In this document: one piece after another, positions 18,054 through 61,789 of the stretch
Layout of the letters: every line of letters begins with the position of its first letter
How positions within the stretch are numbered: position 1 is the stretch's first letter
Virus record (IMG/VR): IMGVR_UViG_3300030202_002990
Span: 1 to 64,000 of that record
Direction: 5' to 3' (one strand)
Length of the DNA stretch: 64,000 bases
Source of the DNA: a virus
Made by a program: the position numbers and the translations under genes
Notes under the pieces: model-generated
What the model was told of the DNA's origin: nothing
The model's input: the letters and a program-made list of their open reading frames with translations, nothing else
Database searches by the model: none

Positions 18054-18707
18054 TCATTTTTTACTACTGCTAACAAGATTATTGGATACTTGTGCACTTA
18101 ATAAAGTTTGAAGTGTGAAGTATAAAGATGGATTCCTTTTTAATAATTCTTTAAATTCTCTCTGTTTCCAAACTAAACACTCACATGGATGTTTGACTAT
18201 ACAAGTCGCAGTTGCTGATTTTTCTGTTAAAAATGACATCTCCCCTACAAACTGACCATCTTTTAATTCAGCTACTTTATTACCATCTACTGCAACATCT
18301 ATTGTTCCATTGTATATCAATACTAAATCTGGTACAAGGTGTGTTTGTCTTGTAACAAATTCACCAGGTTGAAATGTTTTCCAAATGGCAGCCTTACTAA
18401 TTTTTAAATATTCTACAGGTGTTAAATCTTTAAATAGGGTTTCATATAACTCATTGTTTTTATCGTCCATGTGGACAGGTCGTTTTTCATAGATAAGAAC
18501 TGCTATGTGGTATACATTTACGAGTACAAAAACAATATTCCAATTTATCGCCAACCACATTGGTTCAAGGGGGATGTAAAAATTATAAAATACAGAAAAT
18601 AAACTTGCTAGTATGGATAGGATTCTAAGGTATAAAATATCCTTTACTAAAAAAGAAAATGCTATTAGACCAAATGCCAGATGTCCTGCTATCGTTGCGA
18701 TATTCAT
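18054..18707 (-). CDS. Popeye-like membrane protein with cyclic-nucleotide-binding domain
   Basis: 217 residues. Three hydrophobic segments fill residues 5-75 ('HLAFGLIAFSFLVKDILYL', 'LRILSILASLFSVFYNFYI', 'INWNIVFVLVNVYHIAVLIY'). A cNMP-binding fold follows at about 110-200, with 'GQFVGEMSFLTEKSATATC' as the phosphate-binding cassette. The canonical Arg of that cassette is not present. The layout matches Popeye-domain proteins, which bind cAMP at membranes. No cyclase gene is near. It may sense or sequester a cyclic nucleotide in the infected cell, but this is speculative. Confidence 0.75.
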   Translation of the reverse strand: MNIATIAGHLAFGLIAFSFLVKDILYLRILSILASLFSVFYNFYIPLEPMWLAINWNIVFVLVNVYHIAVLIYEKRPVHMDDKNNELYETLFKDLTPVEYLKISKAAIWKTFQPGEFVTRQTHLVPDLVLIYNGTIDVAVDGNKVAELKDGQFVGEMSFLTEKSATATCIVKHPCECLVWKQREFKELLKRNPSLYFTLQTLLSAQVSNNLVSSSKK

Positions 18708-18710
18708 ACA

Positions 18711-19088
18711 TTAAAACACATCTTCGGCCAATACATCATCTATTGCCGACTTGATTTCCTTATTACTTAAATCAAGTTCTCCGTCCATATCGGCTTTCCA
18801 TGTTTCCTTTTTAGAACCATCATAGAATAATGCCATTGATGGAAAGTTTCTAAATCTAAGTTTCTTAACAACCTTTGGTGCTTCTTCACTCTGTACTCTT
18901 AAAATTTCACAATCTTGATATCCACTAACACCTTTGATTAGTTTCTCATCAAATTCGGTTTCTTGCCATTCTGCTGTAAATACCACAACAACAATTCCAC
19001 CATTTATTTTTTCTTTAAAATTCTTATCGTTAACACCTTGACCAAATGTCATGGAGAAAAATAATATCAATCCTAACAAATTTCGCAT
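18711..19088 (-). CDS. Exported thioredoxin-fold protein lacking the CxxC
   Basis: 125 residues from the ATG at 19088, chosen because AGGAGTT sits 6 nt upstream; this also removes an overlap with the upstream gene. The N-terminus 'MRNLLGLILFFSMTFGQ' is a signal peptide. The body has 'VVVVFTAEWQETEFDEKL', where a thioredoxin would have WCGPC, and 'FRNFPSMALFYDG' with the conserved cis-Pro. Redox catalysis is therefore unlikely; a binding or chaperone role in the periplasm is more plausible. Confidence 0.75.
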   Translation of the reverse strand: MRNLLGLILFFSMTFGQGVNDKNFKEKINGGIVVVVFTAEWQETEFDEKLIKGVSGYQDCEILRVQSEEAPKVVKKLRFRNFPSMALFYDGSKKETWKADMDGELDLSNKEIKSAIDDVLAEDVF

Positions 19089-19098
19089 AATGTAACTC

Positions 19099-19785
19099 CT
19101 ACTTGTCCTTTTTTCTCGCAACTTCAACCCTTAAGTTAGCTACAAGTTTTTCTAAATCTTCAATTGCCTCTTCATACTCATCTATTATTTCATAGACGGC
19201 ATCCATATCTTCTTGTAAACCACCTACTTGTGATTTATATTGTTCATAAGAACGAGGCCAGTTATGTCCATCTGGTTTGGATGGATACTCATCACCAAAT
19301 ATAGATTCTATAGATGGTGGTTCAGGTAAATTTTTTGCTTCTTCTATTTCTGATAGTAACATATAGTAACCACCGACACCTGCTGCTATTACACTAACAA
19401 GTGCAATAATGGTCTGAATAGACATTGTAAACTTTGTACCCATAACTTTATCTTCCGAAAGTTCTATTGGTTCTTCTACTTTTGGTTCTTCTACTACAGG
19501 TTGTGGGGTAGGTTGAGCTACAACAGGCTTCGATTCAACTACTGGTTTTGGTATGGGTTCTTTGTGAATCTCTTCGTGCTTTTCTTCGTGTTTTTGGGTA
19601 TCCGAAGAGTGATTCATCATAGCATCGGTGATGTCCTCAAATGTGCAAACACCCATGTCTACAAGAATCTCACCAAGTGTACCTTTACGACCCTTGACTT
19701 GTTCTTGTAAGGCTTTACTTAGTTGTCGTTTTGTGATAACATCTGCATCACATAGCAACTGACCTAATTTAACCCCATCACTCAT
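19099..19785 (-). CDS. MshEN/GspE-N domain protein with TM segment and coiled coil
   Basis: 228 residues. Residues 5-57 ('KLGQLLCDADVITKRQLSKA' then 'GTLGEILVDMGVCTFEDI') match the N-terminal domain of GspE/PilB/MshE ATPases, a fold that in MshE binds cyclic-di-GMP. There is no ATPase domain. A Pro/Glu-rich linker (75-110), one TM helix (121-144) and a C-terminal coiled coil (190-225) follow. It could dock to, or compete with, the host type IV pilus or type II secretion ATPase, linking it to the prepilin-like genes at 41-43 kb. The function is inferred. Confidence 0.75.
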   Translation of the reverse strand: MSDGVKLGQLLCDADVITKRQLSKALQEQVKGRKGTLGEILVDMGVCTFEDITDAMMNHSSDTQKHEEKHEEIHKEPIPKPVVESKPVVAQPTPQPVVEEPKVEEPIELSEDKVMGTKFTMSIQTIIALVSVIAAGVGGYYMLLSEIEEAKNLPEPPSIESIFGDEYPSKPDGHNWPRSYEQYKSQVGGLQEDMDAVYEIIDEYEEAIEDLEKLVANLRVEVARKKDK

Positions 19786-39347: not shown

Positions 39348-39683
39348 TTATTTAAAAACTATCGGTAAAGTGTACTTTACTGTGACAGGTTTACCATTTT
39401 GGATTGCTGGATGATAAGAACTACTTCGTACTTTATCTAACACTACTTCATTAAGGTCAAGATTAAAAGTATCTCTGATAACAGGATTCTCTACTTCTCC
39501 CTTTTCATTTATAAAAAAATCCACAACTATTTTACCTTTTGGATTTTTTAAAAGTATATCTTCTCTAATGTCGTAGTATGTAAGTACGAATGGTACTTTG
39601 GGTTGGGGTAATTGACTCTCACCATTTGGTAAGTCTTGGGCTGTCAATAAGCCCATTAGCATTAGGTATGCTAGTGCTCTCAT
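39348..39683 (-). CDS. Periplasmic protein with TonB C-terminal domain
   Basis: 111 residues. Signal peptide (MRALAYLMLMGLLTAQ), then 'GKIVVDFFINEKGEVENPVI', 'LNEVVLDKVRSSSYHPAIQN' and GKPVTVKYTLPIVF. These are the consensus elements of the TonB C-terminal domain that grips TonB boxes of outer-membrane receptors. The inner-membrane anchor and Pro-rich linker of TonB are absent. A soluble TonB-C could interfere with receptor energisation, which many phages exploit. This role is inferred. Confidence 0.82.
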   Translation of the reverse strand: MRALAYLMLMGLLTAQDLPNGESQLPQPKVPFVLTYYDIREDILLKNPKGKIVVDFFINEKGEVENPVIRDTFNLDLNEVVLDKVRSSSYHPAIQNGKPVTVKYTLPIVFK

Positions 39684-39823: not shown

Positions 39824-40453
39824 TTAAACTTTTTTCATTTTATATTCTAACTGAGATAATAAATTATTTATCTTTTCTAATTTGGGATGATTGGGGTTTT
39901 TTTCTAAAAGTTTATCTTTTGTATTCATCAACTTACCATAGGCCTTCTGTAAATCTATTAGAGCAATTCCTTTCATACTTCGTCTGTAATATAGATGGTC
40001 AAGTGCTTCATCTTCTGCTTCAGCACCACGAACACCAGCAACTGCTGTTATCTGTTCTACTTCTCCGTATATGGTATCTTCTACATCTTGTATTTCTTGC
40101 CATACAGTATTATCCCACATGGCATCTAAATCTAAATTATCCATCTCTGCCAATGCTTCTTGTGTATCTATACTATCTTGTTTGGCCCGTTCTATTTTTC
40201 TGAGTCTATCCCTTTCAGCAAATTCTTTATCTAAATTTACAGAACGGATTGAATCACATTCAGATATCCACCCACCATAACCTTTCCAAGCAGGTGAACC
40301 TTTATAATCTCTATATTCCGTATCATCACAATCTTGTCCAAATGCAACATCTCGTTTAAACTCAGATGTTCTTGTGATACCTTGGTCTGTAAAGACTTGT
40401 TCGTCTACTTGTGAATACATAACACTTACTAACAATAATGGTAAGTATTTCAT
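39824..40453 (-). CDS. Exported helical protein
   Basis: 209 residues. 'MKYLPLLLVSVMYSQ' is a short signal peptide. The mature part has 'EYRDYKGSPAWKGYGGWISE' with a Cys pair (C42 and C66 region) and then a long charged helical domain. It probably acts in the periplasm. Overlaps the upstream 40-aa gene by ATGA. Confidence 0.72.
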   Translation of the reverse strand: MKYLPLLLVSVMYSQVDEQVFTDQGITRTSEFKRDVAFGQDCDDTEYRDYKGSPAWKGYGGWISECDSIRSVNLDKEFAERDRLRKIERAKQDSIDTQEALAEMDNLDLDAMWDNTVWQEIQDVEDTIYGEVEQITAVAGVRGAEAEDEALDHLYYRRSMKGIALIDLQKAYGKLMNTKDKLLEKNPNHPKLEKINNLLSQLEYKMKKV

Positions 40454-40572
40454 TTTTCTCTCTGTTGTTCAATTCTTTTTTTCTTCTTGTATTTCTTTAT
40501 TGTTTGTTTCTCGTCTAATTCCCAAATAAGACAAGCTCCTAAACAAATAATGATTAGAGGTGCCCAACTCAT
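40450..40572 (-). CDS. 40-aa membrane peptide
   Basis: MSWAPLIIICLGACLIWELD gives one TM helix, followed by a very basic tail (IKKYKKKKRIEQQREK). Both ends overlap neighbours by ATGA, which strongly supports translation. Confidence 0.72.
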   Translation of the reverse strand: MSWAPLIIICLGACLIWELDEKQTIKKYKKKKRIEQQREK

Positions 40573-40994
40573 AATATTTCTATTTCGGTTCCTATACCTC
40601 TCTTATCATATTGTGTTCCAACTACTATCGTATAAAAACCTGGTTCTATGTTAGATGACCATTCCGTTCTATATAATTTCCATGTATATGTTTCGATTCT
40701 TTTTCTTCCATCTCTATGTGGACTTAGAGAGATAGGTGTTTGATGTACACTCTTTCCATTTCCATCAAACATAAATAACTTGGTTTTTTTTCTTTTTACT
40801 TCGTATCTGACCTTTACACAAGGTCCTCCTTTTCTATCATAGTCCAACCAAGCAACAATTGGATGTTCATCGAAATCTACTAATGATGGGGTTACTACTG
40901 TAGGTTTAGAATCTTTTTCGGGTGAGAATATCACATATGCTAAACATATAAAGATTCCACCATACAAAAGTAATTCTTTTATTTGATTACTCAT
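40569..40994 (-). CDS. Membrane-anchored beta-domain protein
   Basis: 141 residues. One TM helix (ELLLYGGIFICLAYVIF), then an extracytoplasmic domain rich in Lys and beta-strand, ending with 'SSNIEPGFYTIVVGTQYDKR'. The 'GFYTIVV' strand pattern resembles FlgD/Ig-type folds. It directly follows the prepilin-like genes and could be a minor assembly component. Confidence 0.68.
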   Translation of the reverse strand: MSNQIKELLLYGGIFICLAYVIFSPEKDSKPTVVTPSLVDFDEHPIVAWLDYDRKGGPCVKVRYEVKRKKTKLFMFDGNGKSVHQTPISLSPHRDGRKRIETYTWKLYRTEWSSNIEPGFYTIVVGTQYDKRGIGTEIEIL

Positions 40995-40995
40995 A

Positions 40996-41442
40996 TTATT
41001 GTGCTATATATCTAATTGGTTCCTCAGATAATTCAAATGATGTAGAATCATATGTATAATAATAAATTTCATCGTCACGCCTGTGATGAAAGATAGCAGG
41101 TTCTTCAGCATCAATCAAACTAAACTGCCATTCGTTATCCTCATCAGGTACACCCAATGTTAAATTTATCTTGATATTACGAGTTCTACCCATGACTGTG
41201 AGTGGATTATAAGGCCATGATTCATTTCCAGTTTCGATTAGCTTATCACTTGCGTAAGTTTCACACCCTGCCCATATTGTATCTACAGTCGTCTTTTCAG
41301 CTGATACTGCTGCTGAGTTTAAAACAGATGTCATCTTAGGGACAGCCACTGCTGATAATATTCCTAAGATGACCATAACCATTACTAATTCTACTAAAGA
41401 AAAACCTTCATTCATTTTCTCTTTCAGTATTTTTTTTATCAT
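40996..41442 (-). CDS. Type IV/type II prepilin-like protein A
   Basis: 148 residues. Leader 'MIKKILKEKMNEG', then 'FSLVELVMVMVILGILSAVA', i.e. a class III prepilin signal cleaved after Gly13 with Glu5 conserved. The globular part has 'ESWPYNPLTVMG', 'DEDNEWQFSL' and 'HHRRDDEIYYYTYDS', shared with the next two gene products. Processing would need a host prepilin peptidase; none is encoded here. Ends 3 nt before the start of the downstream membrane protein gene. Confidence 0.9.
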   Translation of the reverse strand: MIKKILKEKMNEGFSLVELVMVMVILGILSAVAVPKMTSVLNSAAVSAEKTTVDTIWAGCETYASDKLIETGNESWPYNPLTVMGRTRNIKINLTLGVPDEDNEWQFSLIDAEEPAIFHHRRDDEIYYYTYDSTSFELSEEPIRYIAQ

Positions 41443-41444
41443 TT

Positions 41445-41915
41445 TTATTGTCCTTCCAAATCTCGTCTATATACAACTTGATTTGGTTGATATGGTGGAT
41501 TGGAATATCCAATCTCACCCGTTGATGAATTATAAGTCCAAACTGCTAAACTATCTTCTTTCCTACGATGAACTATTGAATTTTTAAAATCATTACTTGC
41601 TTCACCAGTAAAAATCCAATCACTATCGTTCATCTCTACCATCAAAGTGGTATTTGATTTGTCGTAGGATTGTGGTACTTTATTAAGTGCGTCAAATGGA
41701 TTGTTTGGCCACTCTTGGACACCATTATCGATAAACTCTTCTTGACTATAAGTATCTAAAGCAGCGACCAAATTAATCAAAACTCCTTGTTCGGAAGCTG
41801 CTTCGGATTGTCGGACAATATTTGTAAATCTCGGTATCGAAACTGCGGCTAAAATTCCAATGATTACCATTACCATAATCAGTTCGACTAAGGTAAAACC
41901 ATTCTTTCTATTCAC
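41445..41915 (-). CDS. Type IV/type II prepilin-like protein B
   Basis: 156 residues. Cleavage after Gly6 (MNRKNG), then 'FTLVELIMVMVIIGILAAVS'. The globular part repeats the family pattern: 'EWPNNPFDALNKVPQSYD', 'DWIFTGEASND', 'HRRKEDSLAVWTYNS'. Paralogue of A and C, pointing to gene duplication in situ. Overlaps C by 8 nt. Confidence 0.9.
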   Translation of the reverse strand: MNRKNGFTLVELIMVMVIIGILAAVSIPRFTNIVRQSEAASEQGVLINLVAALDTYSQEEFIDNGVQEWPNNPFDALNKVPQSYDKSNTTLMVEMNDSDWIFTGEASNDFKNSIVHRRKEDSLAVWTYNSSTGEIGYSNPPYQPNQVVYRRDLEGQ

Positions 41916-42357
41916 TTGACAGACTTTCTCGGTTTCCTAAGAATCCAGTAGTGTCTGCATCTGTTCCTGTGTTTACTCCTGCGTCATACTCCCACTTAAA
42001 CCTTGAGTTGTCTGAGCGTTGATGAGTAATGTAAGCTGGGTCACCATCTACAAATGTCCACTCGTTATCTGTGTCGGCGTTTGTACCATCATCAGTATAA
42101 GTTTGTGGTTTGTCTTTAAGTGCGTCAAAGGGATTATCTGGCCATATAGCTCTTCCACTATCTATGAGTTTATGAACTCCATAGTTTTCGAGTGCTACAC
42201 CAATATTACTGACGACAGCATCTTCAGAAGCTTCTTCAGCTTTTGTAATGGTCTCCAAGTATCTTGGGATAGCGACAGCTGATAATATACCTAATATTAT
42301 CATTACCATGATTAATTCAATCAAGGTAAATCCGTCTTGGTTATTTAGTTTCTTCAT
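41908..42357 (-). CDS. Type IV/type II prepilin-like protein C
   Basis: 149 residues. Cleavage after Gly9 (MKKLNNQDG), then 'FTLIELIMVMIILGILSAVA'. Globular motifs 'AIWPDNPFDALKDKPQTY', 'DNEWTFVDG' and 'HQRSDNSRFKWEYD' align with A and B. AAAGGACAAG precedes the ATG. Confidence 0.9.
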   Translation of the reverse strand: MKKLNNQDGFTLIELIMVMIILGILSAVAIPRYLETITKAEEASEDAVVSNIGVALENYGVHKLIDSGRAIWPDNPFDALKDKPQTYTDDGTNADTDNEWTFVDGDPAYITHQRSDNSRFKWEYDAGVNTGTDADTTGFLGNRESLSSE

Positions 42358-42388
42358 TTTCTTGTCCTTTCAGGTTTGTTATTAAGAA

Positions 42389-43057
42389 TTAAGGTACTAA
42401 AGTTTTATGTAGTTTAGATGGGTTCTCAGTATCTATCACGACAAGAACAGGTGCCTGTGCTGATGTACCACTACCACTTCCTGGTATAATTAGGTAAGCG
42501 TATGAACCATCCTGAAATGGTGAGGTTAAACCATTGTTACCAAAATCTTGTTTGAAGTCAAGAGCACCAATTTCAGAGTTACCATCGTAACCAACTGATG
42601 TTTCAAGACTCATCCAATCGTTTTGTAAAGCGTCATCATCATCGGAAGATGGTGAGAACACATATACGAATTCACTAAGGTCATCTGTATAAGATTCTTT
42701 TTGGTCAAGGATAGTTTCTACATATGCTTCAAGTGTTTCGTCTGTAGATGCATCTTCGGATAAATCAACACCACCAACGGCGACATCATACTTTTCTTGT
42801 CCTGGAAATCTTCCTTTTCCTTCTTCAGATAATGTTTGGTTATAAAAGTTGTTTGCTACAGTTAAGATTTTATCAATGTTTGCCATTGTCTTTTTCTCTT
42901 TAGCACCTGCACCAACTGCACCAAATTTTGGAGCGGCTGTTGTAGCTAATGTAGCCATCATTGCAGTAGTAACAGCGAATTCAGCTAGTGAATTACCATT
43001 AGTACTCTTGAGTTTTCTCATAAAAGATTTTACGAGTTTCTTTATTGTTTCGAACAT
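42389..43057 (-). CDS. Larger prepilin-like protein D
   Basis: 222 residues. A 21-residue basic leader ends in 'KLKSTNG', then NSLAEFAVTTAMMATLATTA: Glu at +5 and a hydrophobic stretch fit a divergent class III signal. The remainder is acidic and beta-rich with no similarity to A-C that I can see. It is the first gene of the pilin set and is preceded by AAGGAG and by a 220-nt regulatory gap. It could be the major subunit with A-C as minor ones, or the reverse. Confidence 0.72.
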   Translation of the reverse strand: MFETIKKLVKSFMRKLKSTNGNSLAEFAVTTAMMATLATTAAPKFGAVGAGAKEKKTMANIDKILTVANNFYNQTLSEEGKGRFPGQEKYDVAVGGVDLSEDASTDETLEAYVETILDQKESYTDDLSEFVYVFSPSSDDDDALQNDWMSLETSVGYDGNSEIGALDFKQDFGNNGLTSPFQDGSYAYLIIPGSGSGTSAQAPVLVVIDTENPSKLHKTLVP

Positions 43058-43277: not shown

Positions 43278-43997
43278 TTACAAAAACGAACCTGTACTTT
43301 GGGTATCAATCATACCATTATTTAGATATTCAGTAGAAAGATTCTGATGATATTTTTTCATCGTGTTGACAATTCGAGTAATGTGTTGTGTTTTGGAACC
43401 ACTCATCTCACGAATCATAATGTACAATGCCTTCTTGTTGAAGTTTTCAATATGTTCAGACCTTCTGAATATTTCCAATACAGAATCAGCAACCAATATA
43501 TCTTTCTTTCTTGTAAAAACATTAGTGATATTGTTTTCCCAATACTCAATAAATTGATTTACATACTCTTTGACACTTTCATTTTCTTCAGCCGTATTCA
43601 TCTCTTCTTTATTTTTCTTATTCCAATCTAACACATCCAAACCATCATGTGATTTATAATGAGCATAATTTTTATTATTGTGTAGAATTAGATAATTCTT
43701 AGCAACAATACTAAAGTATGAGAAAGCCTTTCCCTTACCTTCTTTGAATTTATGCATATTTAATACCAAAAATGATATTACTTCTTGTTTAACTTGTTCA
43801 CTTGAAACATCAAAGTAATAAAACTTAAATGTATGAATTATATTTTCACATAATTTATCAAACGCCCTTCTTATATGGTCGTTGTAAATTCTTTCTTTCA
43901 TGTAAGCCCGTTCTTCTTTATTGTAACGGATTATTGCATCTTCAGTTCCTTGTGTGAAATAATATCTTGGTGAACTTTTTTTAGCTTTTCTTGGCAT
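43278..43997 (-). CDS. Late-transcription sigma factor (gp55-like)
   Basis: 239 residues. 'NIIHTFKFYYFDVSSEQVKQ', 'HKFKEGKGKAFSYFSIVAKN' and 'YLILHNNKNY' form the sigma-2-like core of the gp55 family. A helical C-terminal part follows. It would direct host RNA polymerase to phage late promoters, here perhaps the TATTTAT boxes. The T4 co-activators gp33 and gp45 are not in this window. It ends at a clear terminator and is separately regulated from the pilin genes. Confidence 0.88.
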   Translation of the reverse strand: MPRKAKKSSPRYYFTQGTEDAIIRYNKEERAYMKERIYNDHIRRAFDKLCENIIHTFKFYYFDVSSEQVKQEVISFLVLNMHKFKEGKGKAFSYFSIVAKNYLILHNNKNYAHYKSHDGLDVLDWNKKNKEEMNTAEENESVKEYVNQFIEYWENNITNVFTRKKDILVADSVLEIFRRSEHIENFNKKALYIMIREMSGSKTQHITRIVNTMKKYHQNLSTEYLNNGMIDTQSTGSFL

Positions 43998-61297: not shown

Positions 61298-61789
61298 TTA
61301 CGAGTTTTCCTCGGCTGGTTTATCAACCAAATCTTCTTTCTTAGCTGCCTTTTCTGTTTCAATCTCTGATACAAACGCCTTCTTCTTACCACCATCATAT
61401 TCATAAGCGTGTCCTTCGTTAATTAATATATCATTTATACTAACTAATCCATCAGAAGACTTATCAACATTCTCTGATACTTCATGTCCTACTGCATCTG
61501 GTGAAACAAATATCTCACCCAACACTCTACCGAATTTACCAGTTCCATGTGAAACAATTTTAAAAGTTCCAGCCTCTAATAACTCTTTGTTACGAGCTTT
61601 AGCCGCCAAACCTTTTTCTTTTTCAGCTAAATCTCTTGTTCTACTTTCCCAAGTATCAATACCCATGTATCGAATTCTCTTTTTAATTTTTAAATCGAAA
61701 CCCAAATCAATATAACAATCTATTGTATCTCCATCTAAAACTCTAACTAATGTGCCGTTATACTCAAACGACGCTGGTTTTTTTGCCAT
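61298..61789 (-). CDS. Staphylococcal-nuclease-like protein
   Basis: 163 residues. 'VRVLDGDTIDCYIDLGFDLK', 'RIRYMGIDTWESR' and 'TGKFGRVLGEIF' supply the catalytic set Arg40, Glu48 and Arg88. Asp19 and Asp21 supply the metal ligands. No signal peptide, so it should act in the cell, perhaps on host DNA or RNA. The C-terminus is a charged tail. Confidence 0.85.
   Translation of the reverse strand: MAKKPASFEYNGTLVRVLDGDTIDCYIDLGFDLKIKKRIRYMGIDTWESRTRDLAEKEKGLAAKARNKELLEAGTFKIVSHGTGKFGRVLGEIFVSPDAVGHEVSENVDKSSDGLVSINDILINEGHAYEYDGGKKKAFVSEIETEKAAKKEDLVDKPAEENS

Follow-up and report, generated by a model that had tools for sequence, protein, structure and literature searches.

A T4-like marine virus and its relatives carry a conserved cassette of prepilin genes that would probably feed altered subunits into a filament machine of the host, re-tasking that apparatus during infection. 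The window analysed here comprises bases 1–64000 of the 82,353-base record of this virus. Four tandem prepilin genes, all on the minus strand, occupy positions 40996–43057, exactly where a sequence-only reading of the window had placed them. The row begins with P44 (42389–43057; 222 aa), a G|NSLAEF prepilin that is the first and most conserved member of the cassette, continues with two GspG/PilA-like prepilins, P43 (41908–42357; 149 aa) and P42 (41445–41915; 156 aa, GTG start), and ends with P41 (40996–41442; 148 aa). Two further minus-strand genes, u40569 (40569–40994) and u39824 (39824–40453), belong to the same cassette, whose order is P44-(P43-P42)-P41-u40569-u39824. Directly upstream of P44 lies a gp55-like gene (43278–43997), which we take to encode a sigma factor; it is homologous to T4-like phage genes and has homologues in Flavobacterium phage immuto, Microcystis phage Mel-JY01 and one uncultured phage. 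Baseplate genes are found downstream of the cassette, below 38102, so that the flanks described earlier, gp55 and tail genes, are borne out.

P41 to P44 are genuine prepilins in genuine phages. A class III prepilin signal, made up of a charged leader, G|xxxxE and a hydrophobic helix, is recognized in the three small proteins by curated models: the N_methyl model PF07963 returns 27.6 bits for P41, 35.0 for P42 and 34.7 for P43 (Pfam cut-off 21.2), and all three lie over the cut-off of the NCBIfam GFxxxE domain (TIGR02532). P44 matches no curated family; over the N-terminal helix, a profile built from P44 family members of phages and hosts matches PDB geopilin/PilA (E 7e-5). The prepilin identity proposed from the letters of the window is upheld by these searches, in P41–P43 through pilin/pseudopilin families and in P44 through the geopilin match. 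The globular domain of P44 found no match in a PDB fold search with its AlphaFold model, which consists of a helix (24–79) and a small alpha/beta domain and has a moderate pLDDT of 76. The best NCBIfam match of P41–P43 over the N-terminal helix is GspG (TIGR01710), with 34.5, 41.4 and 42.0 bits for P41, P42 and P43, respectively, all below the equivalog cut-off of 88.85: by this model their globular part is not GspG-like. Their kinship with host prepilins is one of sequence only. Among the landmarks said to be shared by the three small paralogues, WPxNP is invariant, while E/DWxF, HxRxD and WxY are only roughly common to them.

This gene row is found again in dozens of independent virus contigs, which excludes chance and an assembly chimera. 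Misbinned host DNA is likewise ruled out, as the cassette lies between phage genes in these contigs, and the earlier judgement that contamination is unlikely holds. An IMG/VR search with P44 yielded 41 loci; 32 distinct contigs among them, some of these near-copies, extend far enough downstream to show the layout. All 32 display P44, then one or three prepilins and then the u40569/u39824 segment. The gene u40569 is adjacent in 30 of them and was not detected in L042 and L045; in L041 the order of u40569 and u39824 is swapped. This set had been selected by P44, and the survey was therefore repeated from u39824: in each of the 51 loci that reach 2.35 kb or further upstream, P44 and one to four prepilins immediately precede the gene. 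In a shorter contig, L279, a u39824-like gene sits beside a TonB-like gene, with no prepilins within 1.8 kb. Recurrence of the gene set in related contigs, which the sequence-only reading had put forward as a check, is thus confirmed. A survey of the phage group with baseplate genes returned mostly short fragments. The upstream neighbours vary across contigs and include gp55, thioredoxin, a cNMP-binding protein, a PhoH-like ATPase and others, and the position of the cassette relative to other phage genes shifts among relatives. In distant phages P42 is replaced by a prepilin resembling a host minor pseudopilin. The cassette genes are under purifying selection: estimated dN/dS values for the six of them range from 0.06 to 0.23, comparable to those of gp55 (0.07–0.10).

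The two partners of the prepilins differ in their relation to the host. The product of u40569 is predicted to be an accessory membrane protein with an N-terminal transmembrane helix and an Ig-like beta domain; its AlphaFold model (pLDDT 83) contains a helix at residues 3–23 and strands in a beta-sandwich-like set. It has no match among 18 host genomes. A relationship to PilP/GspC was considered and found no support, the fold search returning only Ig-like matches with weak scores. The u39824 product is predicted to be exported, with a signal-peptide-like N-terminus. Its C-terminal half is homologous to a secreted protein of the host (L118:11940–12386; motif AVAGVRGAEAEDEAL), the two sharing 57% identity across 102 aa, a homologue is present in 12 of the 18 host genomes, and the host homologue is located approximately 20 kb from P44 in the same filament locus. 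This secreted protein and its relatives (L075–L086) form an exported family with a near-invariant AVAGVRGAEAEDEALHHLYYR motif and no Pfam family; its members occur in dozens of phages as well as in 12 of the 18 Marinimicrobia genomes covered.

Gene content points to Marinimicrobia as the probable hosts of these phages. Marinimicrobia are an uncultured, abundant ocean phylum whose filament/secretion locus is poorly known. When 84,980 prokaryote genomes were scanned once with a profile of P44, 21 loci were confirmed. All except L054 belong to Marinimicrobia (Neomarinimicrobiota) genomes or marine bins labelled otherwise, the only places outside phages in which full-length P44 homologues were found, and most of them carry the same filament locus. 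L054, although binned in an Alphaproteobacteria MAG (DQLC01000014.1), is a phage contig, on which sugar-nucleotide genes adjoin a phage nuclease homologous to that at window positions 61298–61789. In two complete host regions the P44 locus encodes a prepilin peptidase, a motor ATPase with an MshEN domain, an NtrC-like regulator and a platform protein, together with P43-like genes, minor pseudopilins, an ExeA-like ATPase, a secretin and a CHASE2-cyclase. The row of subunits is headed by P44- and P43-like prepilins, and the P42 class is also present in host genome G016. In the same genome, L119:10346–14240 holds eight tandem P41/P42/P43-like prepilins, a number unusual for a pseudopilus locus. 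The host P44 locus (G003:C12, L117/L118; G016:C1, L119/L120) resembles the phage cassette in its P44 and P43 classes and its AVAGVRGAE exported protein. It differs in adding the peptidase, MshEN motor, platform, minor pseudopilins and secretin, and, unlike the cassette, it has no recognizable orthologue of u40569 or P41.

The host locus is named T2SS-like/type IV filament because curated models place its components between families: motor, platform and secretin fall between PilB/GspE, PilC/GspF and PilQ/GspD, all below equivalog cut-offs. Host motors form two classes, and a PilT-like ATPase accompanies the class other than that of the P44 locus. The machine that matches the phage subunits is the T2SS-like/type IV filament locus without a PilT of its own and, it appears, not the retractile type IV pilus encoded in the same genome. 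The latter was considered as a target and is not supported: the phage prepilins have no BLAST match (E 1e-2) among the proteins of the PilT locus of host G003 (L283), a contig that ends inside a possible major pilin gene. Of the two host targets envisaged at the outset, type IV pilus or type II secretion machine, the class-matched locus thus favours a T2SS-like/type IV filament machine, and the retractile pilus, where no homologue was found, is the less likely one.

The individual prepilins have different histories. P43 is orthologous to the host prepilin L069:13002–13541 and nests with a G016 protein (support 99/98); P42 is orthologous to host L069:10108 and L069:12539 and nests with G016 proteins (support 100/99). 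A tree test rejects the descent of all small prepilins from one phage source (p-AU 8e-5), which together with the separate host nesting rules out internal phage duplication of one pilin for P42 and P43. On profile scores, P41 belongs to a class specific to the phages and lacks a clear orthologue in the hosts: its globular-domain profile scores phage proteins at 138–169 bits, whereas the highest score across 17 host genomes is 44 bits, little above the 31–37 bits that it returns on the paralogues P42 and P43. Window-type P44 proteins make up one phage clade, and with broader sampling the P44s of other phages proved 77–81% identical to a host copy. Exchange of P44 between phage and host is suggested by the P44 of host L056, which falls beside phage P44s, phage monophyly not being rejected (p-AU 0.12). 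Between phage P44 and the main host class, identity declines from 92% in mature residues 22–46 to 57% in residues 47–79 and 37% in the globular part. Such a gradient would be expected of a subunit whose polymerization helix is constrained by the host machine and its subunits and whose exposed face can vary freely.

The phages do not appear to possess a machine of their own. In 16 phage records of 53–132 kb, all of them fragments, prepilins are present without exception, whereas a motor ATPase (PF00437) remained below the cut-off and a prepilin peptidase (PF01478) was absent. A self-sufficient phage-encoded pilus or T2SS was thus not found in these records; as all phage records are fragments, the absence of motor genes is not final. 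As peptidase and motor are lacking, it is almost certainly a type IV filament machine of the host to which the phage prepilins are directed. We infer that processing, incorporation, a hybrid filament and a biological outcome would follow one another. After synthesis P44, P43, P42 and P41 would insert into the inner membrane, and the host type IV prepilin peptidase would cut them at G|xxxxE. The motor and platform of the host P44 locus would then polymerize the phage subunits, beside or in place of host subunits. This would yield a hybrid pseudopilus whose surface or cargo properties are altered, as the helix of P44 is host-like, its exposed domain is diverged and P41 is phage-specific. Acting together with u39824 and u40569, this hybrid pseudopilus would allow the phage to re-task the secretion/filament apparatus of the host, leading to different exports or a changed cell surface.

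An alternative is that the prepilins of the phage act as dominant-negative or capping subunits and jam the host platform, such that a receptor or secretion route of competitors is lost or progeny are kept off debris. Pilus inhibition for superinfection exclusion is an established phage strategy, exemplified by Tip, Aqs1 and Zip (PMC11656802), most minor tip subunits are missing from the phage set and P41 is phage-specific; conserved gene order and purifying selection would likewise be expected of a specific inhibitor set. Yet one subunit would be enough for a block, and up to four matched paralogues are kept, a matched set being retained even in distant phages with their minor-pseudopilin-like prepilin. 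Furthermore, the known blockers are small peptides that act on PilB or PilZ, and the phage set matches a T2SS-like locus rather than the retractile type IV pilus usually exploited by pilus phages. Jamming is for these reasons a rather unlikely explanation. A working hybrid filament is favoured over it because the phages carry, under purifying selection, a full matched subunit set and a partner from the same locus, a combination that appears more in keeping with a filament that is altered and still works than with plain blockage.

It is improbable that the cassette consists of auxiliary genes which keep the host filament or secretion function running unchanged, in the manner of cyanophage photosynthesis genes. 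Such a role would suit subunits that mirror host genes by order and class, the repeated exchange of P44 suggested by the nesting of host L056, with phage monophyly not rejected, and the single pilin that cyanophages carry among their auxiliary genes. It sits poorly with exposed P44 domains as strongly diverged as 37% identity, with P41 and u40569, for which host orthologues were not found, and with a gene set restricted to subunits and partners, the remaining machinery being left out. A role in the virion or in lysis, as structural or envelope-disrupting proteins whose prepilin signal would serve membrane insertion only, is very improbable indeed. Tail genes lie near the cassette in the window and several neighbouring products are exported, but the location of the cassette among other phage genes differs between relatives, no T4-late-type TATAAATA motif was found upstream of P44, and the host orthologues are filament subunits.

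Set against described systems, the proposed feeding of altered subunits into a host machine has partial parallels. The Pseudomonas phage proteins Tip, Aqs1 and Zip inhibit PilB or PilZ as small peptides (PMC11656802). Like the cassette, they are phage proteins directed at a host type IV filament machine; by their descriptions they bind the motor or its cofactor and are not themselves filament subunits, which sets the cassette apart. The cyanophage pilin (Synechococcus phages ACG-2014f and S-CAM7; phrog_3433) is, as here, a prepilin in a T4-like marine phage. It matches P43 only over the N-terminal helix, and in those genomes one pilin stands among photosynthesis and carbon genes (psbD, talC), with no annotated multi-subunit set or partner. 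Searches for cultured-phage homologues of P44 and of the host AVAGVRGAE protein found none, and literature on phage-encoded pilins or pseudopilins and on Marinimicrobia phages with pili, subscription literature lying outside the scope, described no multi-prepilin cassette. Phages that shut down host pili by means of small inhibitors are already known, as are occasional phage genomes with one pilin gene. If the present reading is true, the exchange of subunits matched by class to one host locus gives a phage the means to rebuild a host nanomachine. The cassette also points to a function of this filament/secretion locus and is a strong host marker for Marinimicrobia phages.

Another gene of the window may bear on the regulation of such a filament. 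This minus-strand gene at 19099–19785 encodes a protein with an N-terminal MshE-related c-di-GMP-binding motif, a transmembrane helix and a coiled coil; it scores 46.9 bits with NF053729 (cut-off 38) and aligns in hhalign to the N-terminus of the host motor, which carries the same MshE-related motif. In several relatives (L042, L030, L243, L276, L281), genes of this type closely precede the cassette. Tentatively, and with prospects short of even, we propose that a widespread group of marine phages equipped with exchangeable pseudopilus shaft subunits and an exported partner might turn the host T2SS-like machine into a phage-controlled filament/export system tuned by this c-di-GMP-binding membrane protein. 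The gene adjoins one for an exported thioredoxin-like protein (18711–19127, minus strand; PF00085, E 2e-5), a type likewise found upstream of the cassette in several relatives. At 18054–18707, also on the minus strand, lies the gene for a POPDC-like cyclic-nucleotide-binding membrane protein (PF00027 and PF04831); its counterpart is directly upstream of the cassette in L030, and the CHASE2-cyclase encoded in the host filament locus may be compared with it. Directly downstream of the cassette, a minus-strand gene (39348–39683) encodes an exported protein with a TonB C-terminal domain (PF03544, E 1e-10), a frequent and not constant neighbour, present in part of the related contigs. This protein comprises little beyond the TonB C-terminal domain, without the long transmembrane-anchored spacer expected of TonB. 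Near-full-length homologues of the 18054–18707 protein, with 27–31% identity, occur in five Marinimicrobia genomes.
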